From contig JBDSSF010000003.1 of NCBI GenBank assembly GCA_039928925.1, forward strand, positions 62,001 to 126,000: a stretch of 64,000 bases of DNA. Direction: 5' to 3'. Below are positions 5,555-38,949 of this stretch, piece by piece; position 1 is the stretch's first letter, and each line of letters opens with the position of its first letter. Below the pieces are notes generated by a model, which was not told where the DNA came from, made no database searches, and saw only the letters and a list, made by a program, of their open reading frames with translations. A program made the position numbers and the translations under genes. The stretch comes from Candidatus Saccharimonadales bacterium. GTDB lineage: Bacteria > Patescibacteriota > Saccharimonadia > Saccharimonadales > Saccharimonadaceae.

Positions 5555-5586
5555 TGTTCCAGTATAGATCTAGTAATCAATTCACA

Positions 5587-6276
5587 CTATAAGAGCCGGG
5601 TACCAAACTCCTGCACCTCAGTAATCCTCATTTCACTATCGATTTTTACTAACCCTGCGTCCACATTTTTTAATGCCCTAATTTTTTGAGCAAAATCATA
5701 CTTAGGATAAAACAGCTTCGAAAAACTATTAGGTATATATAAGTAACCAGGTTCAGGGTAAAGTTTGATCAACCTGTGTCCAGTTTCGTTGCCATACTGC
5801 ATAACTAAACTCAGCTCAGAAATATTTGGACTTAAGTCCTTGATCTTTTCCGCTAAGGACGAGAAATCTAAAGACCGCAAAGGCTTGTAAGCGTAGCAAA
5901 CAAAGATAGTTTGAGGTGAAGTATATTTCATTACTTTTTTCTTGAGCGCTTCATACAACTCATCCGTTGAATTTAAACCCCATTCAAATACCTCTATTTC
6001 GAAATTTTCACCAGTAGTGATGCCGTCACCATTCACAACCCTAAACCCAAAGTAATCCGGTTGGGAATCGATTGGATTAGGCCTCAGATAAATTAGGTTG
6101 CTCATGGCTTTACTCGCAGCCTTTGCATACATCGCAGCAATCCAGCCCTCGCGTAAGACTTTATATTTTCTTGATATGAAAGCATCATCACCAACCTCTT
6201 TAATTGTTGACTGCATAAGCTCTATCAAGATTCGAGGGTTTGTATAAGTCTTCTCATTATTAGTTCTACTACTCAT
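5587..6276 (-). CDS. Uncharacterised accessory protein paired with the downstream gene
   Basis: 229 residues, soluble, not recognised. The middle (about 70-125) has strands Y-F-G-F-R-V-V-N-G-D-G and F-E-I-E-V-F-E-W followed by a helix and the strand T-I-F-V-C-Y-A. This alternating alpha/beta pattern would fit a degenerate restriction-endonuclease-like fold. It is the first gene of the pair, followed by the 458-residue gene 32 nt downstream, so the two are probably co-transcribed. The final R-L-L is close to the stop. Confidence 0.65.
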   Translation of the reverse strand: MSSRTNNEKTYTNPRILIELMQSTIKEVGDDAFISRKYKVLREGWIAAMYAKAASKAMSNLIYLRPNPIDSQPDYFGFRVVNGDGITTGENFEIEVFEWGLNSTDELYEALKKKVMKYTSPQTIFVCYAYKPLRSLDFSSLAEKIKDLSPNISELSLVMQYGNETGHRLIKLYPEPGYLYIPNSFSKLFYPKYDFAQKIRALKNVDAGLVKIDSEMRITEVQEFGTRLL

Positions 6277-14156: not shown

Positions 14157-15011
14157 ATGGATATGATAAATAATTGGTTTTCGCACCATGTTGCTGACAT
14201 AGGGACGATACTCCTTATTGGAGCTGTTACATACTGGGTAGGAAACCTTCTACTAGGCAAGGTTGTTACGAAATTCCTCATCAGTGCCAGACACCGAAAT
14301 TGGCATCCTAAAGATATCGAGAAACGTCAAAAAACACTATCTGCATTGTTTGCAGGTGTGTGGCGCATACTCGTTATTGTTCTTACTGGTGTAGCACTTT
14401 TCCAGTCGATCTTCCCTGACTATAACCTCGCGCCACTTTTTGCTAGCGCAGGTATCATCGGTATCGCTCTTGGTTTTGGTGCGCAATCACTCGTCAAAGA
14501 TTTTCTCTCAGGTTTATTTATAATTTCAGAAAATCAATACAGGGTTGGTGACATTATCGATATTGAAGGATCTAGTGGAACAGTTGAACGCATCGGTACC
14601 CGCTCAACTGTTTTGCGTGATGCTGATGGTAATGTACACTACTTCCCAAATGGTATGGTTATGCATGTCATTAATAAAACTATGGGGTACAGTATGGCAC
14701 GCTTTTCTGTTGCTGTTCATCCGACAAGTGATCTAGAAGAGGTTATTGAAATTATTAATACAATCGGCCTAAAGCTTGCTAGTGAAGAAAACTGGGACCA
14801 AAAGATTATTGAACCACCTGCTTTTGTATCCGTTGGAGAATTCACGGCCACATCAGTAGATCTACTGATTGCAGGCAAGACACAACCGTCTGACCAATGG
14901 TCTGTCACCGCACAAATGCGTCGTCGAATCTTACTAGAATTTGAAAAACGACATATTCAACTTGCTGTTGCGCCAATTTTTCCAGGACAATCACAAAAAG
15001 CGAAAAAATAG
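14157..15011 (+). CDS. mscS: MscS-family mechanosensitive channel
   Basis: 284 residues. Helices at about 15-35, 60-85 and the pore-lining TM3 with A-G-I-I-G-I-A-L-G-F-G-A-Q-S-L-V-K-D at about 102-120, the Gly/Ala-packed MscS signature. It continues into the beta domain (R-V-G-D-I-I-D-I-E-G) and the alpha/beta vestibule. Opens under membrane tension to release osmolytes. Length matches the short MscS class (E. coli 286). Convergent with the two small membrane or secreted genes that follow. Confidence 0.93.
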   Translation: MDMINNWFSHHVADIGTILLIGAVTYWVGNLLLGKVVTKFLISARHRNWHPKDIEKRQKTLSALFAGVWRILVIVLTGVALFQSIFPDYNLAPLFASAGIIGIALGFGAQSLVKDFLSGLFIISENQYRVGDIIDIEGSSGTVERIGTRSTVLRDADGNVHYFPNGMVMHVINKTMGYSMARFSVAVHPTSDLEEVIEIINTIGLKLASEENWDQKIIEPPAFVSVGEFTATSVDLLIAGKTQPSDQWSVTAQMRRRILLEFEKRHIQLAVAPIFPGQSQKAKK

Positions 15012-15398
15012 CTACTGAGATGGTGGCGTATCAGATGCAGGTGGATCTATCTGTAGTGATTGGTCACTCAGTACGTCGCCACCATAGCTATCAACACCTA
15101 TAACTTGTTTTGATGATTTGTTAAAAAGTGTTCGAAAATCATCAATAGCTTGTTTATCGAGAGTACCGGTTGATGAATATGTATCAAACTTATCAGATGG
15201 GATTACTTTGTCGCGCACAGCTTGATAGCCGGGACGACTAAGGTCAAGCTGTGCTGCTCCGCTTGAAGCATATAGTGCAAGTGCACTTCCTACCATAACA
15301 AGAGAAACGATAATGACAGTAACAATCATAATGATGAAGCGGTGCTGGGACCATGGGCTTACTTCATCGCCATCTTTAATTAATTGGTCTTCACTCAT
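15012..15398 (-). CDS. Hypothetical single-pass membrane protein
   Basis: 128 residues: polar N-terminus, one transmembrane helix at about 22-46, then an extracytoplasmic domain with D-L-S-R-P-G-Y-Q-A-V-R and a Pro/Ser-rich tail. Its ATG overlaps the stop of the upstream secreted protein by 4 nt, so the two are translationally coupled and probably interact at the cell surface. No family recognised. Confidence 0.7.
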   Translation of the reverse strand: MSEDQLIKDGDEVSPWSQHRFIIMIVTVIIVSLVMVGSALALYASSGAAQLDLSRPGYQAVRDKVIPSDKFDTYSSTGTLDKQAIDDFRTLFNKSSKQVIGVDSYGGDVLSDQSLQIDPPASDTPPSQ

Positions 15399-15934
15399 TT
15401 TGTTACCTCAATTGTTTTTGCCAATGTTTCAAATGAAGCTTGATAGGCTTTAATCATAGATTCGAGATTTATAGTATGGTTATGAACGATATCTCGTTTC
15501 GCCCGTGCATCAGCCACACCATCGTAAAATGCAACTGGTTGATTTGCACAGTTCATTGTGAGAAGCGCTGAGAGAGATTCTTCGTAGCTAATATAACTCG
15601 CTCTAAACTGGTCAAGCTCTCGCTCATAATCGGCTGCAGTCGTGACCAGAGCGACACCATCGAGGCGATTCAAACTAACACGAGCATTAAAAGGAGCCAT
15701 GAGGCGTGTGAGGATCGACTCATAAAGTTGTCCCCTGTTAACACGTAGTAGTGCGTCACTCGCATGAATACGAGACAAGGAGGATTGAGCATCTATGCAA
15801 TTTGCACGTATCCGTTCAACATGCGCACTGTCCATAGGTGTCGTCGACTCGGCATGGACTGAAGAAAAAAGCCCGGCAAGACTAAGCGTCATAACTGAAC
15901 ATATTGTAAATAAAATGAATCGACGAGTTTGCAT
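15395..15934 (-). CDS. Hypothetical secreted protein
   Basis: 179 residues with a classical signal peptide (R-R-F-I-L-F-T-I-C-S-V..., cleavage near V-H-A at residue 28). The mature part is helical and contains two Cys (near 46 and 133) that could form a disulfide. First gene of a two-gene unit with the 128-residue membrane protein. Function unknown. Confidence 0.7.
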   Translation of the reverse strand: MQTRRFILFTICSVMTLSLAGLFSSVHAESTTPMDSAHVERIRANCIDAQSSLSRIHASDALLRVNRGQLYESILTRLMAPFNARVSLNRLDGVALVTTAADYERELDQFRASYISYEESLSALLTMNCANQPVAFYDGVADARAKRDIVHNHTINLESMIKAYQASFETLAKTIEVTK

Positions 15935-15960
15935 TAGTATTTATTATCCAACACTACGTG

Positions 15961-16761
15961 CTAGTTGGTCAAATGCAATTTGTTAGCCGTGCGCATAACA
16001 AGTCCATCTTTTAACAAGCCACTGAGCGCAGGATCGAATCGTGTGTCAGCCGTGACAGCCACTTTTAGCTGTGCAGCCGTCATATCACCGTTTGTTAAAT
16101 GTCGGATAATGTCCCCACGAACTTCACGAATGCTCCCTTTTAGTGGTGCTTGTTTTTTATAATGTTTGCTCTGCTGGAGCCGGCCAGCACCATTTTTCTT
16201 TAACCAGCTACCGTAATCCATTAGTGCCCAATAGAACTCACGAGGATGGCTGTGATCAATTGTTTCTTGTACAAGTCGAACTAGTTCTTTATCACTTACT
16301 TTCTCTCCATCCTTAAAAAAGTGTTGAAAATAAACTGTACGAATATTTGTTTCAATAAATACAATCGGTTTATTGAAAGCATACGCCATGATCGCGCCCG
16401 CTGTATTCGGCCCCACGCCAGGCAGCATTAAAAGCTCCTCATACGTATCAGGTATTTTACCTTCAAACGTATCAATAATTTTTTTTGCACTCTCATAAAG
16501 AAACTTTGCTCGACGATTATAGCCAAGCCCGCTCCAATGAATTAATACATCAGATAGAGTTGAGGCCGCAAGCGCATGTTCGTCTGGAAAGCTTTGAATA
16601 AATGATTCAAATTTAGGAATCACCCTATCTACTTGAGTCTGCTGCAGCATTAATTCACTGACAATAATATAATACGGCCTTGTATCCTGGCGCCAAGGCA
16701 TATCACGATACAGCTCAATTCCCTTGTGGTGTATCTCTGCTTGAAATTCGCTTTTATTCAC
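15961..16761 (-). CDS. mutY: MutY-like A/G-specific adenine glycosylase lacking the FeS cluster
   Basis: 266 residues, GTG start. The helix-hairpin-helix GPD core is clear: S-E-L-M-L-Q-Q-T-Q-V near 33-42 with the catalytic Glu of MutY, and L-P-G-V-G-P-N-T-A-G-A-I near 117-128. The position of the usual catalytic Asp reads I-E-T-N-I-R, that is Glu. The four cysteines of the [4Fe-4S] loop are absent, and the MutT-like C-terminal domain is replaced by a short winged-helix-like tail. Removes adenine mispaired with 8-oxoG if active. It shares a symmetric promoter with msrA, another oxidative-damage gene. Confidence 0.82.
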   Translation of the reverse strand: MNKSEFQAEIHHKGIELYRDMPWRQDTRPYYIIVSELMLQQTQVDRVIPKFESFIQSFPDEHALAASTLSDVLIHWSGLGYNRRAKFLYESAKKIIDTFEGKIPDTYEELLMLPGVGPNTAGAIMAYAFNKPIVFIETNIRTVYFQHFFKDGEKVSDKELVRLVQETIDHSHPREFYWALMDYGSWLKKNGAGRLQQSKHYKKQAPLKGSIREVRGDIIRHLTNGDMTAAQLKVAVTADTRFDPALSGLLKDGLVMRTANKLHLTN

Positions 16762-16767
16762 CAGAAT

Positions 16768-16775
16768 AGTATACT
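16768..16775. promoter_or_regulatory. Palindromic bidirectional -10 box between mutY and msrA
   Basis: The 20-bp gap between the GTG of mutY and the ATG of msrA is centred on AGTATACT, which reads TATACT on both strands. On each side six bases separate the box from the start codon. Both transcripts should be leaderless and arise from the same core. Confidence 0.7.
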
Positions 16776-16781
16776 AGATAT

Positions 16782-17312
16782 ATGACAACTTTAACTGTTG
16801 CAGGTGGATGCTTCTGGTGTGTAGACGCTGTTTTTAGACGTATTAAGGGAGTATCGACATCAATTTGCGGTTATGCAGGTGGTGAGCAGGGTGATGCAAA
16901 TTACTATAGAGTAGCAAGTGGCCACACTGGACATGCTGAAAGCGTTCAGGTCACTTTTGATGAAGCAGTTATACCTGCCGACATACTTCTTGATATATTC
17001 TTCTTAATTCACAACCCGACCACGCTAAACCGCCAAGGTAATGACGAGGGCCCTCAGTATCGGTCAGCTGTATTCTATGCCGATGAAGCTCAAAAATCCC
17101 TCTTTGATCAAGCTATTGAGCGCGCAACAAAGACCTGGGACGACCCAATTGTGACAGAAGTGGTGCCACTCGAAACTTTCTATGAAGGAGAGCCAGAACA
17201 CCAAGATTATTTCAATAACAATCCGGGTAACGGGTATTGTTCGATTGTTATTTTGCCAAAAATTATCAAAGCTCGGAAAGAATATCTCAGCTGGTTTAAG
17301 GAGGAGTCTTGA
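16782..17312 (+). CDS. msrA: Peptide methionine sulfoxide reductase MsrA
   Basis: 176 residues starting almost directly at the catalytic motif G-G-C-F-W-C (residues 8-13), followed by G-Y-A-G-G and Y-R-S-A-V-F-Y. Reduces methionine-S-sulfoxide in proteins. Full family length. The stop codon overlaps the TTG start of the downstream hydrolase gene, so it heads a small operon. Confidence 0.95.
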   Translation: MTTLTVAGGCFWCVDAVFRRIKGVSTSICGYAGGEQGDANYYRVASGHTGHAESVQVTFDEAVIPADILLDIFFLIHNPTTLNRQGNDEGPQYRSAVFYADEAQKSLFDQAIERATKTWDDPIVTEVVPLETFYEGEPEHQDYFNNNPGNGYCSIVILPKIIKARKEYLSWFKEES

Positions 17313-17938
17313 TACTAACGAAATATTTACATGCATGTTTTACTGTTGAAAAAGATGGCAAGTTAATTGTCGTTGATCCAGGTGCATTTAGTACTGATTT
17401 TATTACGCCAGGTAATGTCTTGGCTGTCATTGTAACTCATGCGCATGGAGATCATTTTGACCATGATCAACTTGAAGCTATTATTGATAAAAATCCTGAT
17501 GCAATTATTATTGGCGATGATTCAATTACATCTAAAATCGATGTGTTTGAAACACACACAGTAAAAGCCGGTGATCACATGGTGGTTGGACAGTTCGAAC
17601 TTGACTTTACGGGTGGAGAACATGCATTAATACATGAAAGTATTCCACGCGCGACAAACGTCGGAGTAATTATAAACGAATTACTTTACTATCCTGGTGA
17701 CTCATTCGTATCACCTGGTATGGCAATCGATACCCTTGCTATCCCGGCAGGTGCACCTTGGATGAAAACCGGTGAAGCAATGGACTTCATAAAAGCCGTA
17801 AAACCACGTTTTGCATTTCCTACGCATGACGTACTCTTATCAGAAAGCGGCAAAGCAATTGCCGATCAAATGCTTAGTACGATCGCAAAAAGTAATGATA
17901 TTGAATACCGCCGTCTTGAAGAGCCGATAGAAATCTAG
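17309..17938 (+). CDS. Metallo-beta-lactamase-fold hydrolase
   Basis: 209 residues. The start is TTG at 17309, fixed by a strong AAGGAGG a few nucleotides upstream, and it overlaps the msrA stop by 4 nt. The zinc motif T-H-A-H-G-D-H-F-D-H lies near 44-53, followed by G-G-E-H near 107 and Y-P-G-D-S-F near 128. Resembles the UlaG-like/YtnP-like L-ascorbate lactonase relatives (DUF-type MBL), substrate unknown. Co-transcribed with msrA and the following glycosylase. Confidence 0.85.
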   Translation: MILTKYLHACFTVEKDGKLIVVDPGAFSTDFITPGNVLAVIVTHAHGDHFDHDQLEAIIDKNPDAIIIGDDSITSKIDVFETHTVKAGDHMVVGQFELDFTGGEHALIHESIPRATNVGVIINELLYYPGDSFVSPGMAIDTLAIPAGAPWMKTGEAMDFIKAVKPRFAFPTHDVLLSESGKAIADQMLSTIAKSNDIEYRRLEEPIEI

Positions 17939-17939
17939 T

Positions 17940-18581
17940 GTGAATAGCAAAATCAGCCTAGCAGTAGAGCACCTCATTAAAAATGATGTGGTGCTAGCCG
18001 CGGTTATTAGGAATAACGATCTACCTCGTTTTTCGCCCCACACGCAGTATTACCAAGAATTAGTTAGTAGTATCGTAAGTCAACAACTCAGCGTCAAAGC
18101 AGCGGCAACAATTCAAAAGCGTTTTGTAGATAATCTGTTTGACGGGGCATTCCCTACGCCCAAGATGATCCTCACCTACTCAATTGAACAGCTACGAAGT
18201 GTGGGACTTTCTCGAGGCAAAGCAACCTACATCCAAGATTTAGCGCGTCACATCATTGATGGAACATTGCAACTCGATGGGCTTAATAGATTATCAAACG
18301 ATGAAATTATTCAAAAACTGACGCAAGTAAAAGGTATAGGTACGTGGACAGCACATATGTTTTTGATGTTTTGTATGGGTCGACTAGATATTTTACCAGT
18401 CGGCGATTTAGGTATTCGAAATGGTATTAAAGCCCTTTATAAGTTCGATGATATTCCAACGATTTTTGAAGTTGAAGATGTTGCAAAAAAATACAACTGG
18501 CATCCTTATGAGTCAGTTGCGGCATGGTATGTATGGAGATCGCTTGAAAATGTCCCTATTCTCGTACCACAAGACGAATAA
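17940..18581 (+). CDS. AlkA-like DNA-3-methyladenine glycosylase II
   Basis: 213 residues, GTG start one base after the upstream stop. HhH-GPD architecture: I-V-S-Q-Q-L-S-V-K-A-A near 44-54, the hairpin L-T-Q-V-K-G-I-G-T-W-T-A-H near 124-136 and P-V-G-D-L-G-I-R near 152 with the catalytic Asp. Removes alkylated bases to start base excision repair. It is the short AlkA form without the N-terminal domain. Its end overlaps the convergent hydrolase gene by 26 nt. Confidence 0.88.
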   Translation: MNSKISLAVEHLIKNDVVLAAVIRNNDLPRFSPHTQYYQELVSSIVSQQLSVKAAATIQKRFVDNLFDGAFPTPKMILTYSIEQLRSVGLSRGKATYIQDLARHIIDGTLQLDGLNRLSNDEIIQKLTQVKGIGTWTAHMFLMFCMGRLDILPVGDLGIRNGIKALYKFDDIPTIFEVEDVAKKYNWHPYESVAAWYVWRSLENVPILVPQDE

Positions 18582-28961: not shown

Positions 28962-29972
28962 CTAAGGGCGATAGTGCCGATGTCTACGTGACCTACGCTT
29001 TCGTATAAATAGCCAGATGATTATAATTATCCCAATGAAGATAATGATACCAATACCTGCAGCGATGATCAGACTCTGCGGGATTACCCAAAACGATTTT
29101 GAAACTTCAATTGTCTGATTGTTTTTGCCATAAGTAAACGTTGCTATCACCGTATACTGACCAAAGCCTCCAGTGTTACTAAGTGGAATGTCCCACCTGC
29201 GAGCACCATCGGGCAATATCACATCGCGAGGATCTTTAGTATTAAAATCTGTATCATATACAACTTTGTCACCCTGCTTAACTGATACTTTACCAAAAGG
29301 ACCAATCTGTATATTGCCCTTATTTTCGAAGCGAACAGTAGCTTGTAGATTGTCCAAGCTACTAAAGTTCGAACCGGTCATGCCATTTTGCTGAATATCA
29401 AAATTTGTAAGTGCAAGTTTTTCCACCGTATTGCCTGGTACGGACAATAGAATTAATGATGCGACACTTGCACTAAGATTCACCTGGCCACCACCATCTG
29501 GTGAAGTTGGGGCAAAACGAATTGCGCCAAAATATCCACCTGCTTGTGCACTTAGCGGGACAGTTATAACGACATTAATCGTCTTTGCTTGTTTTGGAGG
29601 AATTGTCACACTTGGCAGCGGTGTCATGAAACGCTTGAGACTATGAGTTGGGGCATATGTATTTGCATCTAAAATCAGTGATGGTGTTCCTCGTTCATCA
29701 CCTGAGACAAAATCGTTCTCTATCGGACTGACGGTAATTGGTAAGCTTGTGAGATTTGTTACAGTTGTTTTGACCGTCTTATTTTCACCTGGCTTAATTT
29801 CGATGTCTGTACGTACTGGTGAGACCTTTAAGGTATTTGCTGTATTAATTTCAATTGCCGCTACCGAATGTAAACCCGTGAGTATAGCTATGATTGCAAA
29901 TGTCATCAGCACTGCCATAATCATTCGGATGTTTATTTGTATGCGCTGGGCTTTTAACACTTTTAACTCCAC
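28962..29972 (-). CDS. DUF916-like membrane-anchored surface protein 1
   Basis: 336 residues: N-terminal membrane or signal segment (about 17-40), two Ig-like beta domains, C-terminal helix at about 298-320 and a basic tail with R-K-R-R-S-R-R-H-R-H. The first domain has the DUF916 pattern: V-S-P-V-R ... I-K-P-G-E-N-K-T-V-K-T-T-V-T-N and I-P-P-K-Q-A-K-T-I-N-V, then A-G-G-Y-F-G-A-I. In Gram-positive bacteria DUF916 proteins accompany WxL surface proteins and bind peptidoglycan. A second copy is encoded at 32252-33313. Confidence 0.8.
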   Translation of the reverse strand: MELKVLKAQRIQINIRMIMAVLMTFAIIAILTGLHSVAAIEINTANTLKVSPVRTDIEIKPGENKTVKTTVTNLTSLPITVSPIENDFVSGDERGTPSLILDANTYAPTHSLKRFMTPLPSVTIPPKQAKTINVVITVPLSAQAGGYFGAIRFAPTSPDGGGQVNLSASVASLILLSVPGNTVEKLALTNFDIQQNGMTGSNFSSLDNLQATVRFENKGNIQIGPFGKVSVKQGDKVVYDTDFNTKDPRDVILPDGARRWDIPLSNTGGFGQYTVIATFTYGKNNQTIEVSKSFWVIPQSLIIAAGIGIIIFIGIIIIIWLFIRKRRSRRHRHYRP

Positions 29973-30038
29973 TCTACGTCATTATCTTTCATCATAACAG
30001 ACAGTTTCGCGTTTACTGTATAGTGCCGTTATCATGTG

Positions 30039-31175
30039 TTAAAACTTTCCGGTAGCAACCAAGCTAAGATCCGCTGAATATAAACCAGCTGGTGTATTAT
30101 TGCTTACACTGGCACCAAACGTAATAGTCATATTCTTATTATTAACTGGCGCACCTGCTGTATCGAGAAATGGGTCTCCGTAAGCGCTTGTGACACCACT
30201 TGCGCCACCTGAAAAATAATTGAGTGCATACGTAGTATTGTTATATCCAGACCCAGCAACAGGCTGGAGTGTCCCTGATGCATCGGTAACACCAACGGAA
30301 CTCGTTGCGGCTGTTGTCTTAATACCAAACTTCGCTTGGCCCACAGATATATCACTTTGAAGAGCTGGAACAATATCACAGACACTCGCACCAGTACGCC
30401 GTAGGCCGCCACAGCTAACGCTATTCTTAAGATTGACAACTGCACCACTCGCAGCATTCGTGGAAATTTGGGTATTAATCGTGCCTTCACTGACAGTAGA
30501 TGCGTTGAGCGCGACTGTATCGCCAACAGTTTCACCAAGTTTCAGTGTGGGAGGATCATTTCCTGTAAGATTACAGTTTGCACTAATAGTATTTTTTGCG
30601 ACACAAAAAGTCATGCTCTCAAGTACAGATCCGGCTACGCCTACAGTTGGTGTGATATACATAGCAACACCGCCCTGATCTTCTGCACCAGTATTCAGAT
30701 CTGTTGATGTATATGCCTGAGCGCTTGTTTTATCAGTGTATGTCACAATACGTGCGTACAGAGGGCCAGCATCTGGAGGGTTTGTTATGCCTGTAAGCGC
30801 TACTGAAATGGGCGCTCCTGCGCCTATAGTGCCAGTGATGACCGCTTGTGTCGTGCTACCTATCACATCAGTAAAACCAGATGTTGTAGAAGCTGCAGAA
30901 CTGACATCAAAGCCTGTCGAAGGCGCAGTGCACGTTTCGCCGATGACAGGGCTGTTTTTGCAAAAATCAATTACAAATGCACCAGCGGCTTGAACTGCCG
31001 TAAAATTAATAGTATACGTAACATTAGTTGCAGAAATTGAGGAGCTACTAAGAGCAATGGATCGTTCCGTCACCTGAGCAGCCGAGACGAGCGCAGACGT
31101 GGCAGTCGTTAATAGTAATGCAGCTGCTATAACTAAATACGCAGCTTGGCGGCTAAATGATCGAATAGAATTCAT
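30039..31175 (-). CDS. Secreted beta-sandwich surface protein, paralogue 1
   Basis: 378 residues from the Met at 31175 (AAAAGGA just upstream). Signal peptide to about residue 34. Two beta-rich domains with Cys pairs (F-V-I-D-F-C ... C-T-A-P and M-T-F-C-V-A ... N-C-N-L). The C-terminus reads N-T-P-A-G-L-Y-S-A-D-L-S-L-V-A-T-G-K-F, the motif shared by all four paralogues in this locus. No C-terminal membrane anchor, so it is probably retained by partners such as the DUF916-like proteins. Role in adhesion or envelope structure is inferred. Confidence 0.72.
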   Translation of the reverse strand: MNSIRSFSRQAAYLVIAAALLLTTATSALVSAAQVTERSIALSSSSISATNVTYTINFTAVQAAGAFVIDFCKNSPVIGETCTAPSTGFDVSSAASTTSGFTDVIGSTTQAVITGTIGAGAPISVALTGITNPPDAGPLYARIVTYTDKTSAQAYTSTDLNTGAEDQGGVAMYITPTVGVAGSVLESMTFCVAKNTISANCNLTGNDPPTLKLGETVGDTVALNASTVSEGTINTQISTNAASGAVVNLKNSVSCGGLRRTGASVCDIVPALQSDISVGQAKFGIKTTAATSSVGVTDASGTLQPVAGSGYNNTTYALNYFSGGASGVTSAYGDPFLDTAGAPVNNKNMTITFGASVSNNTPAGLYSADLSLVATGKF

Positions 31176-31284
31176 TTTCCTTTTCCCTACATCCACTTTG
31201 CTATTTGTCTTCCCCGGTAACGATTTCAGTGTATCATGATACTGCTTATTTTTGTCAAGTTTGTTACTATATTTTGCATCGTAA

Positions 31285-32202
31285 CTACTTTTCCTGGTAG
31301 CTATCTCGTTCTTTTAGCATTTTATTACGAAGTGATACTATTTGGCTACGTCGGCCTAACCAATACGTAGGTAGGAGTAGTATAAGTCCTACGAGAGTAG
31401 GAACCCAGAGTACTTTTGCTGCTGGAGTTGTTGGCGCCGTATCAGTTGCAACGGTTGCATCAACCTTACCACTCGCAAGTGCGATTACCTGCAAAAAAGC
31501 ACTCACGCCATTAACGTCAGTTACTCGTATATTTACCTGATATATTCCTGCATTCTTATAAGTATGCTTAATTGTTACAATCCCAGCAGAAGGTTGACTC
31601 TTAAGCTCGGCTGGTGATCCATCACCCCAATCGAGGCTGAAAGCATATGGACCAGCACCCCCAGATAGTTGTAGAGGCCAGGTCAACTCAGTTCCTGCAG
31701 GGGCGGATCTTCGACCGTACGAGCTCGTAAGCGTCACTAGTGCGCCAAATGCTGTAAAACGCGTATCAGTATAATTAATAGTAACAATATTGGAGGTCGG
31801 TCCTGCCTGATCTAGATCGTCGTATACGATTGCGCTTAGTTCGTTTACTCCTGCAAATAGACTTATTTGTAAACTAAAGCTGCCAGCCTTACATATAACT
31901 GAGCCAACCATGACTCCATTATCATATACCTGAACAAGTAGGTCGTTAGCACAAATACCGTTAACTGTCGTTGTTGGTGACGTAAATGAGGAACCATTCC
32001 CGGGTGTTGTTATGGTTGCGCCAACTGTCGGAGGCGGTTGTGTTTTTGTCGCCTCAAGACCATATGACCCTGGCTTTGGATTGGGCGTGGGAAGTGCAGT
32101 AATCGCAGATACTGGCTGAACGTAAACAAACAGCGCCAGCATACACATACCCGTTGCTACCAGGCGTGTCCACTGTGCGCTGAAATGTATTTTATACGTC
32201 AT
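31285..32202 (-). CDS. Ig/PKD-domain surface protein with C-terminal anchor
   Basis: 305 residues: signal peptide (to about 33), a Pro-rich linker, an Ig-like domain at about 60-148 (two Cys at the expected strand positions), and a PKD domain at about 160-245 with L-D-W-G-D-G-S and H-T-Y-K-N-A-G-I-Y. A membrane helix follows at about 263-283, then a basic cytoplasmic tail. PKD and Ig domains act as spacers or binding modules on cell surfaces. Confidence 0.78.
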   Translation of the reverse strand: MTYKIHFSAQWTRLVATGMCMLALFVYVQPVSAITALPTPNPKPGSYGLEATKTQPPPTVGATITTPGNGSSFTSPTTTVNGICANDLLVQVYDNGVMVGSVICKAGSFSLQISLFAGVNELSAIVYDDLDQAGPTSNIVTINYTDTRFTAFGALVTLTSSYGRRSAPAGTELTWPLQLSGGAGPYAFSLDWGDGSPAELKSQPSAGIVTIKHTYKNAGIYQVNIRVTDVNGVSAFLQVIALASGKVDATVATDTAPTTPAAKVLWVPTLVGLILLLPTYWLGRRSQIVSLRNKMLKERDSYQEK

Positions 32203-32251
32203 ACTTATGCTTATTGTAGCGTGCTGGGGCTACATGCGAAAGTGCTAGCTG

Positions 32252-33313
32252 CTATTTTCGACGTGATGACTTTTTAAGCTGTGGACCGTATATTTTTCGA
32301 CGAATTGCACGGACAGTACGAAGAACAACATACGCAAGAATGATAAGAACTACGATGAACAGGAATATGAACCACATTGGTAAGTACCAAAATGTAGCTG
32401 TCTTTACAATTTCCTGTGTTTTATTACCGTTTTGACCATAAAATACATCAAGTGTAGCCGTGTAAACTCCTGGCCATAGACCAGGTGATGCACATGTATT
32501 TGTCTGCGTATTTGAGCCATTGAAGTTTACGTCTTGTGCCTGAATTTTAATACATGTCGTAAATGTACGCGTTTGACCAATAAGGGCAAGTGAGCCACTT
32601 GGGTTAACATTATTGATCGTCTGTTCTTTACCAAAAATATCTTTTAATACAATACTACCTACCGGTGCCTCAGTAACGTTACCGTTGTTTTGTAGTGTGT
32701 ATGCAAGGTTTTGTGGCTCGTTACCCGTTATGAAAAGGTAGCCAGAATCTTTACCTTGTGCGGCCGTATCATATGCGCCAAAGTTTTTAATCTTAAGATC
32801 TTCATTAACTTGTCCTGGGATTGAGGTGAAAACAAGCGTCGCACCTGATGCGCTTAGGCCGACGTTACCACCATCTCCAGGGGCACCTGATGAATACAGG
32901 ATTGCACTGTAGTAGCTACCCGCACCATGATTTGCTGGAATTTTAACACTCATGTCAACTGTCTTACTACTGTTTGGTGGAATAGTAACGCTCTCAGGTA
33001 CAGTAAGGAATGGCTTTAGTGACCAAGTTGTCTCCGGTGCATCCGTAGCAAGCATTAGCTTAGGAGTACCACCATTATCTGTATAGGTAAAATCAATAAC
33101 ACGTAGGTTAAGCTCAAGAGGCTGCGCTGGATCAAGGTTGCGGATAGTTAACTTGTCATTAACAGATTTACCGGGCTCAATCGTGTAGTTCTTTTTTGGC
33201 ACTATACTAAGTGATGCCGATGACGCTGCCGAAGCTTGATGCGCAGGAACAATGTATGCCGCCCCCACTAAAACCACAAACGCGGCTATAAAAATGCTTA
33301 TAAGGCGTTTCAT
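32252..33313 (-). CDS. DUF916-like membrane-anchored surface protein 2
   Basis: 353 residues, paralogous to the protein at 28962-29972: signal peptide (cleavage near residue 29), Y-T-I-E-P-G-K-S-V-N-D-K-L-T-I-R-N-L-D-P, I-P-P-N-S-S-K-T-V-D-M, and G-A-G-S-Y-Y-S-A-I-L-Y. It ends with a membrane helix at about 313-335 and a Lys/Arg-rich tail. Differs by a Cys pair in the second domain (T-C-I-K ... N-T-C-A-S). Probably a wall-facing scaffold for the secreted paralogues encoded on both sides. Confidence 0.8.
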   Translation of the reverse strand: MKRLISIFIAAFVVLVGAAYIVPAHQASAASSASLSIVPKKNYTIEPGKSVNDKLTIRNLDPAQPLELNLRVIDFTYTDNGGTPKLMLATDAPETTWSLKPFLTVPESVTIPPNSSKTVDMSVKIPANHGAGSYYSAILYSSGAPGDGGNVGLSASGATLVFTSIPGQVNEDLKIKNFGAYDTAAQGKDSGYLFITGNEPQNLAYTLQNNGNVTEAPVGSIVLKDIFGKEQTINNVNPSGSLALIGQTRTFTTCIKIQAQDVNFNGSNTQTNTCASPGLWPGVYTATLDVFYGQNGNKTQEIVKTATFWYLPMWFIFLFIVVLIILAYVVLRTVRAIRRKIYGPQLKKSSRRK

Positions 33314-33369
33314 TATTTTATTTTTCCCTCACATTATTACAATTCTTAAGTATAAGCTGTATTTTATCA

Positions 33370-34443
33370 TTAAAATCGCCCGCTGGCTATGTAGGTAATC
33401 GTTGTACTATACACACCAGCACGTAAATCTTCACTTGAATTCACTATGTAACTAACGGTAAATTTTTTCATCAGGCTAACGTTAGGTGAATATGCTACGA
33501 CGTCACCTGATACATACTTATACTGATTAGGAATACCGTAGTCAGGCGATGGAACTGCATTTGTCCAGTCGCCTTCAGGGTCGCTTCCAATTGACGGGCT
33601 GTCGTTTGCGACTAAATTAATACCAAACTGATTACTGCCCTGTTTGCTTACAGATGGCACTGATGACGAGTCGATAACGTTTGTACCTGCGCTCATTGAG
33701 TCACCGTTTGCGGTGATCGCAAATCCCCCACTCGCATTTGTGCCAACAGCCATCTGAGATTGTGCCAGTAGAGTCGATTTCGCGCTCAGCTGCCCCATGT
33801 CAGTGTAGTTGATTGCATTCGTGTCAGTACAGTTATCAGCGACCTGACCAGCTACGCAAAATAAAAGCATTGGTGGAACTTGAGTTTCGAGTGTAATATC
33901 GGTGGTCACCTGGCCTTCAACAGAACCAAAGTCAATTTGTGGTCCTGTAGCGTCGGGCGTAGAGTGACTTCGCAGACGAATTGAGAATGACTCACTAGTA
34001 TCTGTCGGGTTTACGATATTATCAAACTTATATGATGACCCGTCTGCCGTTATCATGCTACTCGGGCGTGTCAGTACAATATGGTTTGCTGTTTTAGACA
34101 AGATCGAAAAGCCCGTCTCTCCCGACTGAGCACTTAGTACAGCATTAGACACATCGAGACCAGGTGGCGTCACACAGGGATGGTACGGAATAGGGTCAAC
34201 GCAAAATAGCATATCCACTGAGCCTACGGGAATCGGAGTTACGTATCGAAACGACAGCGTATATGATGTTGTGACACCGGGTCGCGTGCTATTCATATAA
34301 AGTCCGCGCTCCTGAAAACGTGTCGCAGCTGATACGGGTACAACAAATACGAACAAAGCTAATAATAAGGCTAGAAATTCCTCAGACCATAAATTACGCC
34401 ATGAAAAGATGTGCGCATGAAATCGTAACAACTTATGCTGCAT
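33370..34443 (-). CDS. Secreted beta-sandwich surface protein, paralogue 2
   Basis: 357 residues from the Met at 34443; the first in-frame ATG (34509) lies in the terminator of the upstream gene. A TACAAT box just upstream suggests its own promoter. Signal segment ends near V-S-A-A-T. Same two-domain plan as paralogue 1: M-L-F-C-V-D ... P-C-V-T-P-P-G-L-D-V-S, then L-L-F-C-V-A ... N-C-T-D, V-G-T-N-A-S-G-G-F, and C-terminal L-R-A-G-V-Y-S-T-T-I-T-Y-I-A-S-G-R-F. Confidence 0.72.
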   Translation of the reverse strand: MQHKLLRFHAHIFSWRNLWSEEFLALLLALFVFVVPVSAATRFQERGLYMNSTRPGVTTSYTLSFRYVTPIPVGSVDMLFCVDPIPYHPCVTPPGLDVSNAVLSAQSGETGFSILSKTANHIVLTRPSSMITADGSSYKFDNIVNPTDTSESFSIRLRSHSTPDATGPQIDFGSVEGQVTTDITLETQVPPMLLFCVAGQVADNCTDTNAINYTDMGQLSAKSTLLAQSQMAVGTNASGGFAITANGDSMSAGTNVIDSSSVPSVSKQGSNQFGINLVANDSPSIGSDPEGDWTNAVPSPDYGIPNQYKYVSGDVVAYSPNVSLMKKFTVSYIVNSSEDLRAGVYSTTITYIASGRF

Positions 34444-34494
34444 ACCTATCATTGTACTAAATAATAGAGATAATGCGTAGCTACTGATACACAA

Positions 34495-34525
34495 AGAATA
34501 ACCGGCCAAAACGGCCGGTTATTCT
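34495..34525 (-). terminator. Strong symmetric terminator
   Basis: A 13-bp stem (AGAATAACCGGCC / GGCCGGTTATTCT) with a 5-nt loop. Ends transcription of the large paralogue 3 gene on the minus strand. Confidence 0.85.
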
Positions 34526-34568
34526 CATATTAACAATCTCTTTGCTATGTCTTAGCTAAACGTTATGT

Positions 34569-36311
34569 CTAGTACTGAGGAGCAGCGATGTAGTTAATTT
34601 TAGTTGTGTAGATACCAGCTGGAGTCGTTGCTGCAATGTTTGCAATGTAACGAACTTTACCAGTTACACAGTCGACAACCTGGTTGCTCTCAGAAGCAAG
34701 TGGAGTCGGGATCAAGTTTGAATCAGGATCAAATGCGTACTTTGTGTTAACAGAGCCGTATTGTCCAGGTCCACCGTTTACAACACCCGCACCTTGGTCG
34801 TAATTGACTTCTGGGATAAGTGGGTATAGTTGTGGATCATGGTATCCTGAAAGTCCCTGAGCTGTAACATCTGCTGCAACACTTGCGTGTAGACCAGATA
34901 CCGCAGCATCTGCACCATTTTCGAAGGCACCTTTTCCGGCGTTTCCACCAAGGTTATCTTCTTTATTGTAGTTAAGCGTGTAGAGGTTACCAGCACCACC
35001 TACAAGGCCGTTAGCTGCACGTGTACCGTTTGTCAGTGCTAGTCCAAATTGTGGTGTACCACGGCTTGGAGCTACTGATGAAGTACCGATTGCTCTAATT
35101 TCGTCACCAACGGTGTTTTTAAGTGTCACACCTGAGTAGTAAACTGTTGCACCAGCACTAGAGTTCGAGCTTAGACGCCAGTACGAGTGTGTACTGTAAG
35201 TTGCAGCTGTACTTAGTGAGTTTTCACCAGTTGTATCACCAAGTTGCAGAACGTTTGGCTGAGCAGGATCTGCTAGCATACCTTTTGCAATTGGATCACA
35301 TTGACCGTGTTTTGTTGCGTTGTTGTCGCCTACTGGTGTAGTAACAAGTGCATTTTCTAGTTGACTTGGAGTTGAAACGCTACCGTTAGAACTATCAAGT
35401 GTGTATGGGTCAACCGTTCCAACAGAGAAGTCCATAGTTTCAAGGACCTTTGTTTGAATTTCGATTGATTGGTTCATGATGTTAGCAACAGTAACACCAC
35501 CGTCAACTACTGTCGTAGCAGCTGTGTCACTATAGTCGTTAATCTTTACGAAGAACGCACTTGCACCAGGGTTAGTGATGTAGTTTGTATCTGTACCGAA
35601 GAAGATAACTTTCACAAAATCACCAGCAGCAAGTGTCTGACCACCTGAGTTCGATAGCGTAATGTAGTTAGCTTTTCCTGTTGATGTACCACCAACAACC
35701 GTACCAGCAGAACCACCTGAAGTTTGGTTCACACTAGAAGCCATTGTCCATCCAGTGCTTGCAGTCCAAGGATCACCTACAAGAGTTTTGTGCATAACAA
35801 TGTAGTTACCTTCGCTGTTGTCGGCTTTTGGAACATTTGCAGAACTGCTTGGAACACCAGTTGTTGCGTTAAATTTTGTACCGAATGTTGAGACTGCAGC
35901 TGGAGTTGCAGTTACTACTTCAAGGTCACTTTGCTTAGCTGCAAATGCCGTAGCATCGTTTGCGTTAGCATGGTCTGCAATATTACCAGGTCCCATACAG
36001 TCACCAGCTGGGTGAGTACAGTACTGGAATGTCATTGCCTTAATAGATGCGCCTGAGCTTACATTAAAGGCAAATGTGTTACCAGTTTGTCGACCATTTG
36101 CACCGCTGTTTGGCTGTGCGTAGGTTGCATTACCTGAACCGTCTTTGTAACTCCATCCAGGTGATGAGCTCGAAAGCGTCAAGCTACGGTTTGTTAGTGG
36201 ATTCAATGCGTCCGCGAAAACTGCCGTTGATGGAACGACGGCAGCAAGCACAAGTGCTGCTGCGGCGCCCATAAGCGTGCCTCGCTGAGCGATTGATTTT
36301 AGTGTATACAT
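34569..36311 (-). CDS. Large secreted surface protein, paralogue 3
   Basis: 580 residues from the Met at 36311 (AAGGA upstream); a longer frame begins at 36440 but has no signal-like start. Signal peptide M-Y-T-L-K-S-I-A-Q-R-G..., cleavage near V-F-A. Ser/Thr/Asn/Gly-rich beta protein with Cys at F-Q-Y-C and D-C-M-G. C-terminus T-P-A-G-I-Y-T-T-K-I-N-Y-I-A-A-P-Q-Y matches the other paralogues. It has its own strong terminator and may be an abundant S-layer-like or adhesin protein; that is inference from size and composition. Confidence 0.75.
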   Translation of the reverse strand: MYTLKSIAQRGTLMGAAAALVLAAVVPSTAVFADALNPLTNRSLTLSSSSPGWSYKDGSGNATYAQPNSGANGRQTGNTFAFNVSSGASIKAMTFQYCTHPAGDCMGPGNIADHANANDATAFAAKQSDLEVVTATPAAVSTFGTKFNATTGVPSSSANVPKADNSEGNYIVMHKTLVGDPWTASTGWTMASSVNQTSGGSAGTVVGGTSTGKANYITLSNSGGQTLAAGDFVKVIFFGTDTNYITNPGASAFFVKINDYSDTAATTVVDGGVTVANIMNQSIEIQTKVLETMDFSVGTVDPYTLDSSNGSVSTPSQLENALVTTPVGDNNATKHGQCDPIAKGMLADPAQPNVLQLGDTTGENSLSTAATYSTHSYWRLSSNSSAGATVYYSGVTLKNTVGDEIRAIGTSSVAPSRGTPQFGLALTNGTRAANGLVGGAGNLYTLNYNKEDNLGGNAGKGAFENGADAAVSGLHASVAADVTAQGLSGYHDPQLYPLIPEVNYDQGAGVVNGGPGQYGSVNTKYAFDPDSNLIPTPLASESNQVVDCVTGKVRYIANIAATTPAGIYTTKINYIAAPQY

Positions 36312-36512
36312 GTTTGTATATATCCTTTTTTGTTTTAATATTTTATTCCTTTTGCAAGGGGTACAGCCGCATCTTACCATTAGAAGTATGTGGAGCGCAA
36401 TAGGTTTTCCACAGGATTTTTTATATTTTCTTAATTTCATACATAGCCACTACTATACGAGACTCGTTTGCTCATTGGATTTATAGTAATACTGCTATAC
36501 TATAAGCAAATT

Positions 36513-37070
36513 ATGAATCATTACATCCAAACCGTAAAAAATTATTTATCAGAACATAAAAATATATTCCTTATTAGCGCCTTGATTATAGTCATTCTCG
36601 CAGTAATGGCTGCTCTGTTCATGTATAACAGTCCTCAAAAACATACCTATAAGGCTACAAATGCTTGCGATCTTTTTAGTCCCAAGAAAGCACAAGATCT
36701 ACTCGGTGAGAAAGTCATTAGTGTCGACACAAAGGGAGTTATCGTTTCTGGTGACATAGCTACGAGTAAGTGTAGCTATACAGATAGTAATCAAGACACC
36801 ACTAAGCTACGTGTTGCAGCAGTTGCTGTTCGCTCCGGCATTAACGAAAAGGGTATACAGCAAAATATAACTGAGTTTACGAATAGTAAAACTGGCAAAA
36901 CTGTTGAAGATGTCAATGACATTGGTGACAAAGCCTATTTTAACCAAACGCTTGGTCAACTCAATGTACTAAGAGGACGTGACTGGATTATACTCAGCTA
37001 TGGCCTCGGGTCAGCACCAGAAACAAATGAACTTAGCAAAAATATTGACCTAGCAAAAAACCTTTTTTAA
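36513..37070 (+). CDS. Hypothetical membrane-anchored protein
   Basis: 185 residues from the ATG at 36513; TATACT at 36496-36501 is the likely -10 box. One helix at about 19-40, then an extracytoplasmic domain with N-A-C-D-L-F-S and S-K-C-S-Y (a Cys pair, about 55 and 88). The domain resembles DUF3558-type lipoprotein-like folds (C-x-L-L-S ... A-x-x-L-L-G), but I cannot confirm the family. The only plus-strand gene inside the surface locus. Confidence 0.65.
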   Translation: MNHYIQTVKNYLSEHKNIFLISALIIVILAVMAALFMYNSPQKHTYKATNACDLFSPKKAQDLLGEKVISVDTKGVIVSGDIATSKCSYTDSNQDTTKLRVAAVAVRSGINEKGIQQNITEFTNSKTGKTVEDVNDIGDKAYFNQTLGQLNVLRGRDWIILSYGLGSAPETNELSKNIDLAKNLF

Positions 37071-37080
37071 GTAAACAACT

Positions 37081-37821
37081 CTAATAGACCGGTATGACAA
37101 CTGCCGAAAAATCGCCAGAATAATGACCCGCTGGTGTTGAATTAGAAATATTAACAATCATACTGATTGTGTAGCTTGTCTGGCCAGACGCACTACTGCT
37201 ACGAGCGACTATATCCCCACTAACATATTTAAATAAATCTGCAGTTCGGTAATCAGTAGTAGCAATGCCGAAGCTTGTTTGGTTTGAAGGTACCTGGATA
37301 GGATCAGCTCCAACATGCGGGGTGGTATTTGTAGCAGCATTTATCGCGAACTGTTCAGTACCTGGCGTAGCTCTTACTGGTGTACTCGGCGTACTGAGTG
37401 TGTGGTTTCCATACTTTGGTGGTGTACCGACGATTTGAAGTATATACCCATCACTAAGATAATTTCGTACCTGTACTGTCGTTGTCTTAGTCGCAGTACT
37501 CTCAGTGGTAAGTACACCGAGATTCGACACGCCTGGATCAACAATAACTTCAAGTAACGGGTCGCTATTGGTAATAGGACCAAATACGGCGGACGTGCCA
37601 CTGCTCGCAGCACTGCCAGCCCCCGCATCACCGATCGAAGCCTGCGCGCAGTACTGAGTTGAACAGTTTTGTGACGATGACGATGCGCCAAACTGTGTTT
37701 CAGTTACCTGATAATTGTTTGAAGTTGCTGTCTGCGCGTCTGCAATACCTGGGGTGCCACTAACAATTACTGCGATTGTCAGTATTTGTTTTACATAGTG
37801 CACCAATCTCCGTTTTTGCAT
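37081..37821 (-). CDS. Short secreted surface protein, paralogue 4
   Basis: 246 residues from the Met at 37821 (M-Q-K-R-R), signal peptide cleaved near A-D-A. One Cys pair (N-C-S-T-Q-Y-C). It corresponds to only the second domain of paralogues 1 and 2: F-A-I-N-A-A-T-N, F-K-Y-V-S-G-D-I-V-A, and C-terminal T-P-A-G-H-Y-S-G-D-F. The upstream frame to 37866 is extra. Confidence 0.68.
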   Translation of the reverse strand: MQKRRLVHYVKQILTIAVIVSGTPGIADAQTATSNNYQVTETQFGASSSSQNCSTQYCAQASIGDAGAGSAASSGTSAVFGPITNSDPLLEVIVDPGVSNLGVLTTESTATKTTTVQVRNYLSDGYILQIVGTPPKYGNHTLSTPSTPVRATPGTEQFAINAATNTTPHVGADPIQVPSNQTSFGIATTDYRTADLFKYVSGDIVARSSSASGQTSYTISMIVNISNSTPAGHYSGDFSAVVIPVY

Positions 37822-37926
37822 AAGCCTTATGGTACGTATTATCACTGATAGAAGGTAAAAATACAACTAGCGCCGAGCTGATAAGTATAGTAAGCTATAC
37901 GTAAACATAATCGAAATAATAAAAAT

Positions 37927-38949
37927 ATGGAACCCGACAAAAATACTACTCCGTCTACAGAAGATAAATCGCCTGAAGAAGATCGAGGTGCTCCTGTTGA
38001 CGCACTGAGTCGCACTCCTGATGATCTTGATAGCGAGAAAGCCGAACAGACTGCAGCTGACAAGTTAGATCATCCGACCGACGAACCAGGCGTGAAAAAA
38101 ATCTCCCCTTTTAAGAAGTTCTTTCGTAAAGTGAATCTTTATTTTCTCATGTTTTTACTTGTTATTGTTATCGCAGGCGTTGTTACTGCTGTCAATTATT
38201 TAAATAGCACAAAGGTTACTCCTGAACCCAGTATTGCAACCCAAGGATTAAGCCAAGATGCCCTCAAGCAGCTCGCTAATAAAGATGCGACTGTTGGCAA
38301 CACGTCACAGACACTTACAATTCAAGGTAACGCGATTATAGCTGGTCAAACACTTCTTCGCGGCAACCTAAATGTCGCTGGCAATATACAGAGTGGCGGT
38401 AGTATTCAAGGCCCAAGCCTAACTATTTCTGGTCAATCAAATCTCGGTGCAACACAGATTAATAGTCTTCAGGTTGCCACCAATACCGCAGTCCAAGGTA
38501 GCACAACTCTTCGAGATCTTAATGTCGCCGGTACGTCTTCATTTAGCGGTGCAATGACCGCTTCACAGATCACTGTGTCGCGATTAATCTTAAGTGGTAA
38601 CGCGGTTCTTCAAATCCCTAATCATATTAGCTTCACAGGGCCATCCCCAAGTCGAACGATTAATACTAGTGTCCTTGGAAGTGGAGGCTCAGCATCCGTC
38701 AATGGATCTGACACCTCGGGCGTTGTTAATATCAATACTGGTGGCGGACCGATAGCTGGCTGTTTTGCGCGCATTAACTTTCAACAAGCTTTTGTAAATC
38801 AGCCCCATGTTATCATTAGCCCGGTTGGTTTAGCTGCTGGACAAACTGAATACTATGTTGATCGTAATACGACTGGATTTAGTATCTGTACTGCAAACCC
38901 TGCTCCAGCAAACCAAGTTTTTGCATTTGATTACTTCGTGACAAACTAG
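37927..38949 (+). CDS. Membrane-anchored fibre-like protein
   Basis: 340 residues. Acidic cytoplasmic N-terminus (about 1-65), transmembrane helix at about 75-95, then repeated short beta units (G-N-L-N-V-A-G-N-I, S-L-T-I-S-G-Q-S-N-L, R-D-L-N-V-A-G-T-S-S-F-S-G) like those in trimeric tail fibres and autotransporter stalks. A compact C-terminal head of about 80 residues with two Cys follows. It is a type II membrane protein with a surface stalk and head. It is convergent with the ATPase operon, ending 3 nt from the epsilon-like gene. Confidence 0.72.
   Translation: MEPDKNTTPSTEDKSPEEDRGAPVDALSRTPDDLDSEKAEQTAADKLDHPTDEPGVKKISPFKKFFRKVNLYFLMFLLVIVIAGVVTAVNYLNSTKVTPEPSIATQGLSQDALKQLANKDATVGNTSQTLTIQGNAIIAGQTLLRGNLNVAGNIQSGGSIQGPSLTISGQSNLGATQINSLQVATNTAVQGSTTLRDLNVAGTSSFSGAMTASQITVSRLILSGNAVLQIPNHISFTGPSPSRTINTSVLGSGGSASVNGSDTSGVVNINTGGGPIAGCFARINFQQAFVNQPHVIISPVGLAAGQTEYYVDRNTTGFSICTANPAPANQVFAFDYFVTN

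Follow-up and report, generated by a model that had tools for sequence, protein, structure and literature searches.

Saccharibacteria are tiny organisms of a group known to live on other bacteria, and little is settled about the means by which Patescibacteria in general attach to their hosts and stay attached. We report the analysis of a surface locus in Candidatus Saccharimonadales bacterium (assembly GCA_039928925.1), situated in a stretch of 64,000 nucleotides (contig JBDSSF010000003.1, positions 62,001 to 126,000 of the forward strand), here called the window, within a genome whose five contigs add up to 984,634 bases. The locus spans window positions 28962-37866 and consists of seven minus-strand genes: two for DUF916 proteins, four for secreted proteins and one for an immunoglobulin-like (Ig)/PKD protein. 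It is real, conserved and already catalogued in NCBIfam as a pilus system, the Pam pilus; the present work adds a specific partnership between its pilin-type C-terminal domain, Pam_C, and DUF916 proteins that are homologues of WxLIP, the companion of the WxL proteins of Gram-positive bacteria. This firm pairing suggests how such cells might build and hold the structures with which they touch their hosts; it gives a predicted partner for each anchor and makes a simple binding test possible. Research on WxL proteins, in turn, gains relatives in which the partner domain differs and the WxLIP stays. The Pam system is named in NCBIfam; our literature search found no paper on the Pam pilus or on the curators' evidence for the term 'pilus' and, among the papers listed, none that joins Saccharibacteria with WxL or DUF916.

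Genes of the Pam locus

The order of transcription is PamT, large paralogue, paralogue, DUF916, PamR, paralogue, DUF916. PamT (37081..37866, minus strand, as are all seven genes) is the smallest secreted paralogue and, like the other three, carries Pam_C at its C-terminus; it scores 293.3 bits with its own model (NF058579, cut-off 240) and 147.7 bits with NF058581, the model of the pilin C-domain (cut-off 55). Its named relatives come from six Candidatus Saccharibacteria metagenome-assembled genomes, at 53-68% identity over most of its length, and point to a saccharibacterium as the source; a seventh match, to a contig that bears the label Proteiniphilum, is a short fragment. The large paralogue (34569..36440) is an open reading frame (ORF) of 623 amino acids whose true start is probably the Met codon at 36311; its Pam_C domain, which holds an insert, occupies residues 405-623 (89.2 bits with our own hidden Markov model (HMM), 60.6 bits with NF058581). 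The following paralogue (33370..34509) combines an N-terminal beta domain with Pam_C (NF058581, 156.0 bits), and after a predicted signal cleavage its mature chain probably starts at 34326. It is paired with the DUF916 protein of 353 amino acids at 32252..33313. PamR (31285..32202) has Ig-like and PKD domains (PF00801, 32.7 bits), a sub-threshold glucodextranase-B domain and hydrophobic segments at both termini, and scores 377.4 bits with NF058578 (cut-off 300). The last paralogue (30039..31196), with F-C-x-C pairs and Pam_C at residues 225-385, falls below the NF058581 cut-off at 43.0 bits and scores 91.7 bits with our own HMM; it is paired with the DUF916 protein of 336 amino acids that closes the operon (28962..29972; own HMM, 345.7 bits). 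None of the four secreted paralogues has a second hydrophobic stretch, and the signal peptide of PamT was recognised by eye, no peak rising above the cut-off.

With PamR and PamT above the cut-offs of the NCBIfam Pam pilus models of Patescibacteria, and the pilin C-domain matched in all four secreted paralogues (three of them above the cut-off), the locus is, by its sequence, a saccharibacterial Pam pilus-type surface system. Every NF058581 match in this genome falls inside the locus, in five places within the four genes, and the domain gave no match in 14 control genomes. A further model, NF058580, describes an unrelated lipase. On the plus strand, next to PamT and divergent from it, lies a gene for a membrane protein with one helix and a sub-threshold bactofilin-like stretch (37927..38949; PF04519, 16.5 bits, below cut-off), a probable unnamed member of the locus; neither it nor the DUF916 proteins have a specific NCBIfam match of their own.

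An initial annotation of this DNA, made from the sequence letters, had recognised two anchored DUF916-like proteins, four secreted paralogues and a PKD/Ig protein, all of which are present, and had likened the whole to a WxL/DUF916 cluster. The likeness holds for the layout, in which the partner gene lies directly upstream of the DUF916 gene as it does in the WxL clusters of Enterococcus. Its details needed correction: both kinds of gene share one operon but do not strictly alternate; the common cysteine pairs, F/Y-C-x(6-9)-C, occur in three of the paralogues, PamT having only C68/C73; and the proposed terminal motif A-G-x-Y...Y-x-A is complete in two of the four, though all four have A-G-x-Y near the C-terminus. 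In a wider sample, [AP]-G-x-[YF] stands within the last 22 residues of 76 of 110 Pam_C domains as against 10 of 504 background ORFs. We rejected this motif as a marker, since DUF916 itself has a similar P-x(n)-G-x-Y stretch, as have other Ig-like domains, and alone it is weak.

Between PamT and the large paralogue, on the opposite strand, is an ORF for a membrane-anchored protein of 200 amino acids (36468-37070). Close relatives have only a short gap at this place, and a tblastn search against all the loci compared found only its own copy.

The DUF916 proteins and their pairing with Pam_C

Both anchored DUF916 proteins are homologues of WxLIP across both Ig domains. In a search of the genome with PF06030 (cut-off 27.3) they score 31.2 and 27.8 bits, and as whole proteins 29.8 bits (28962..29972) and 26.1 bits (32252..33313), the latter just under the cut-off. 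A profile of Patescibacteria DUF916 proteins aligns by hhalign with two Enterococcus and one Streptomyces plasmid DUF916 proteins over 250-267 columns at a probability of 99.2-99.5%. No Pfam match to DUF3324 at E 1 or better was found in either protein; the second Ig domain (HBD/DUF3324) is covered nonetheless by the hhalign columns and by structural alignment. The AlphaFold2 (AF2) model of 32252-33313 (mean predicted local distance difference test score, pLDDT, 72.8) has as its top match in VIA-align the WxLIP of Enterococcus faecium, 9i1y/9i25 (Z 12.6, 225-226 residues, root mean square deviation 4.5-4.9), which Foldseek also puts first (E 1.6e-10 and 2.4e-10). Next come RbmA, with Z about 9, and the chaperone-usher chaperones CsuC, CfaA, FimC and PapD, with Z 7.6-8.4. 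Both proteins have a hydrophobic N-terminus and a C-terminal transmembrane helix, with hydrophobic peaks at residues 301 (28962..29972) and 313, the model placing the helix at 313-341. The WxLIP signature NQIDKxxxYFDLK (PMC10599100) is absent from 14 aligned DUF916 sequences. Sequence searches of solved structures with WxL-like, DUF916 and pilin alignments gave nothing significant; in the same search an Enterococcus DUF916 query retrieved 9i1y and 9i25, and an Enterococcus WxL query no structure.

The same genome has two more DUF916 sites, at 14801-18069 and 4252-5683 of locus L161: one consists of two tandem DUF916 genes behind a secreted protein of 348 amino acids, and the other of a DUF916 gene convergent with that of a secreted protein of 186 amino acids, both secreted proteins ending, by eye, in a Pam/WxL-like hairpin. 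The DUF916 protein of the Streptomyces plasmid (L164, 3893-4846) scores 81 bits against the profile of the saccharibacterial ones, the two Enterococcus proteins 22-45 bits. The known hosts of cultured Saccharibacteria are actinobacteria (PMC10633639).

The recurring unit is a module of two genes, a Pam_C protein followed by a DUF916 protein. Among 192 Patescibacteria genomes Pam_C occurs in 52, DUF916 in 62 and both in 31 (odds ratio 5.2, p 1.8e-6 by a Fisher test that, here as in the class survey below, ignores the relatedness of genomes). For 33 of the 48 DUF916 hits in genomes with Pam_C, a Pam_C domain lies within 2 kb, in all 33 cases on the same strand and upstream; 29 of the 48 stand less than 400 bases directly behind it, and 15 have no Pam_C within 2 kb or none on the contig. 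The gap is at most 150 bp in 51 of 52 modules. A survey of the class, made on 244 genomes with a DUF916 profile of higher sensitivity and counted at the level of genomes, found DUF916 in 96 of 98 genomes with Pam_C as against 76 of 146 without, the two exceptions being G198 (87% complete) and G340. The initial annotation had named a lack of association with DUF916 in relatives as grounds for abandoning its proposal; with 96 of 98 genomes having both, the association is there.

The two genes also diverge together. Over 52 modules, the distances between Pam_C domains and those between the neighbouring DUF916 proteins correlate with a Mantel r of 0.777, whereas swapping partners within the 18 genomes that have two or more modules gives a mean r of 0.418, and none of 2000 swaps reaches 0.777. 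When eight closely related loci are left out, r is 0.525 against 0.397 for swapped partners (2 of 2000). Neighbours thus track each other better than swapped partners do: the pair behaves in evolution as one matched unit, a pattern expected alike from binding and from joint duplication.

Gene order is conserved as well. The seven-gene order and the divergent bactofilin-like gene are kept in all eight close loci (the window, L028-L033 and L055), and four others (L056, L057, L059 and L061) keep the order minus the last pair; in these, two or three Pam_C genes separate the PamT-type gene from DUF916. In all 12 loci where the bactofilin-like gene was found it adjoins the PamT-type gene and is transcribed away from it. 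In other loci Pam_C forms the end of proteins as long as 1712 amino acids, mostly with DUF916 next in line, and DUF916 genes without a recognised Pam_C often stand, by eye, behind the gene of a small secreted WxL-like protein or of a giant one that ends similarly. True WxL relatives occupy the slot of Pam_C in other Patescibacteria. The 67 loci surveyed were picked partly for Pam_C and partly for DUF916 without Pam_C, and the count of 52 out of 87 among them is therefore not a rate. The DUF916 proteins of a third group, in other Patescibacteria (L085, L087 and similar), are, again by eye, longer and carry a LysM-like tail, and the gene before each codes for a large membrane protein with the look of a glycosyltransferase; this is a different use of the same domain.

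Subunit fold, proposed mechanism and alternatives

The AF2 model of the mature subunit 33370-34326 (mean pLDDT 84.5) is all-beta and consists of two domains, the first of which, at the N-terminus, is similar to YcnI (Z 10.2), BslA and cohesins. The Pam_C part matches TLP-1b, known here from the title of its PDB entry (Z 8.2, 126 residues, 2.5 Å), and the pilin domain of CfaE (Z 7.3); these scores lie near the level that the tool regards as common, and a pilin-like sandwich is therefore supported, not proven. As for the partner, an AF2 prediction (PMC10599100) has the WxL sandwich completed by a DUF916 hairpin that has no structure on its own, and the entry 9i25 is titled as a WxLIP bound to a long WxL. 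In our DUF916 model residues 144-157 lie between two strands with pLDDT below 50, which suggests the kind of place that a hairpin-type loop would take. Related principles are described in a Gram-positive bacterium, where TapA is a strand-lending chaperone (PMC10151520) and TasA fibres are built by strand donation with TapA as helper (PMC9674648).

Beyond the family membership, pairing, conserved synteny, co-divergence of neighbours and WxLIP fold set out above, our proposal is that strand complementation keeps each Pam_C subunit on its cognate DUF916 protein at the membrane, so that it can be assembled or anchored there. The proposal builds on the predicted DUF916 hairpin, 9i25, the place of the 144-157 loop and the TasA/TapA precedent, and we consider it evenly balanced between right and wrong. 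The WxLIP would be a dedicated membrane-tethered chaperone or anchor for Pam-type beta-sandwich subunits, of which there are four, exported by Sec and sharing Pam_C, with each of the two WxLIPs encoded directly behind one of them. The Pam_C sandwich would receive a strand from a loop in the first Ig domain of the WxLIP, in the way predicted for WxL and the DUF916 hairpin. The WxLIP would then either pass the subunit by strand exchange to a fibre under construction, in the manner of TapA with TasA, or hold the base on the cell; assembly seems to us the less likely of the two. Finally, the exposed N-terminal domains and PamR would contact the host bacterium. Filaments and host contact, the latter also suggested in the initial annotation, are putative for the Pam locus.

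Several observations weigh against this proposal. The fold matches of Pam_C, at Z 7-8, are near the level that the tool calls common by chance. Conservation of the DUF916 loop (143-164) is barely above average (1.60 against 1.48 bits), with the most conserved stretch elsewhere, and we do not claim a strongly conserved disordered donor loop. Joint duplication of the two genes can also give co-divergence. Only two of the four Pam_C genes here have a DUF916 of their own, and Pam_C also ends proteins of 958-1712 amino acids, as would suit an anchor domain no less than a pilin. Cryo-electron tomography of TM7x has shown two types of filament, both attributed to type IV pili; the thin one is lost on deletion of a type IV pilin gene and the thick one is not tied to genes, and the accessible part of that source (PMC12206443) reports no Pam filament for TM7x. 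Essential adhesin-type proteins, for which a link to the Pam locus would be conjecture, are described in Southlakia (PMC10633639).

The likeliest alternative is that Pam_C and WxLIP form a WxL-like anchor which fixes single adhesins to peptidoglycan, as has been proposed for large and small WxL proteins, with no polymer, and that 'pilus' is a misnomer. Proteins that end in Pam_C range in length from about 240 to more than 1700 amino acids, and similar ends, sub-threshold and recognised by eye, close frames of 1820, 2681 and 3826 amino acids just before DUF916 genes. The architecture of large and small WxL proteins described in PMC9772566 matches, as does the order of partner then DUF916 in Enterococcus. 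However, four paralogues in one operon, two of them without a DUF916 of their own, together with PamR and PamT, exceed the needs of one anchor pair, and the NCBIfam curators, whose evidence we found in no paper, name the system a pilus. We regard the anchor as possible, if somewhat doubtful.

A second alternative takes the paralogues to be divergent members of the WxL family that have lost their motifs, making the locus a WxL cluster in the strict sense. A profile of 38 WxL-like proteins of other Patescibacteria, a set drawn from ORFs that aligns with Enterococcus WxL proteins at 96.9% by hhalign, exceeds 5 bits in 31% of 108 Pam_C domains. The share is 1% both for the 108 reversed sequences and for the 324 shuffled ones, 9% for 46 DUF916 proteins and 3% for 591 other ORFs (one at 27.3 bits); the profile's best matches are co-linear across most of Pam_C. 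In the reciprocal direction the Pam_C profile finds 18% of the 38 WxL-like proteins, 0% of reversed and 1% of shuffled ones. A bridging protein (L102, 3808-4428), left out of both profiles for this cross-scoring, reaches 53.2 bits against the Pam_C profile and 19.5 bits against the WxL-like one. Yet hhalign aligns Pam_C with the WxL-like proteins at only 57-68%, over 25-40 columns of the terminal hairpin, and with four Enterococcus WxL proteins at 0.5%. At E 0.001 the WxL family PF13731 is not found in this genome, though it is in 8 of the 192 genomes elsewhere in the phylum, and none of 110 Pam_C domains has two W-x-L motifs, 13 having one. W-x-L, held to be missing in the initial annotation, is not wholly absent: the large paralogue has a single W-R-L, kept in 8 of 8 orthologues; in a by-eye alignment it lies in the strand before the glycine turn, whereas WxL domains have the motif after the turn. 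Judged on these sequence comparisons the paralogues are not WxL proteins, and the idea that they are WxL domains gives way to the Pam pilus subunits named by NCBIfam; strict membership is improbable, and distant kinship is possible. When 21 pilin-type members and 10 selected proteins of WxL-like or bridging type were searched with Pfam, the one hint of a family was a sub-threshold WxL match (13.7 bits). No WxL chain is among the 50 structural matches listed for the pilin model, and a shared fold is possible all the same. A tblastn search for the Pam-type domain in plasmids gave one chance-level match only.

A third alternative is a surface complex that captures or breaks down polysaccharide, a role once suggested for cell-surface clusters of Lactobacillus, in which PamR would bind the carbohydrate. 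The PKD and sub-threshold glucodextranase-B domains of PamR would suit it, but no enzyme is recognised in the operon and this explanation is very improbable.

Returning to strand complementation, a bolder form of it would see the WxLIPs of Patescibacteria as equivalents of pilus chaperones that are tethered to the membrane and need no usher, every one matched to the subunit encoded just upstream of it, and would unite Pam_C, WxL and donor-strand pilins in one superfamily of WxLIP-held beta-sandwiches. We think this unlikely; if it were true, the WxL clusters of Gram-positive bacteria would be relatives of a pilus system.

Comparison with known systems

The Pam pilus system of NCBIfam is shared in PamR and PamT, both over their cut-offs, in the pilin C-domain of the four paralogues and in the synteny of relatives; the DUF916 proteins and the bactofilin-like gene differ in having no NCBIfam match of their own. 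Chaperone-usher pili have two-Ig chaperones that the DUF916 model resembles (Z up to 8.4) and a pilin domain that Pam_C weakly resembles; here there is no usher among the genes of the locus, the companion is membrane-tethered and the likeness in fold is near chance. The TasA/TapA fibres of Bacillus subtilis likewise combine a secreted beta-sandwich subunit with a companion, with strand complementation proposed, but the companion in the Pam locus is a membrane-anchored two-domain WxLIP and there is no sequence match. The Gram-positive clusters of WxL and WxLIP (DUF916-DUF3324) differ in that the partner here is Pam_C instead of WxL, that NQIDKxxxYFDLK is absent and that PamR and PamT are additional; with them the locus shares a full-length two-Ig WxLIP homologue with a membrane helix, a partner gene directly upstream, and small and large partners with a common C-terminal domain.

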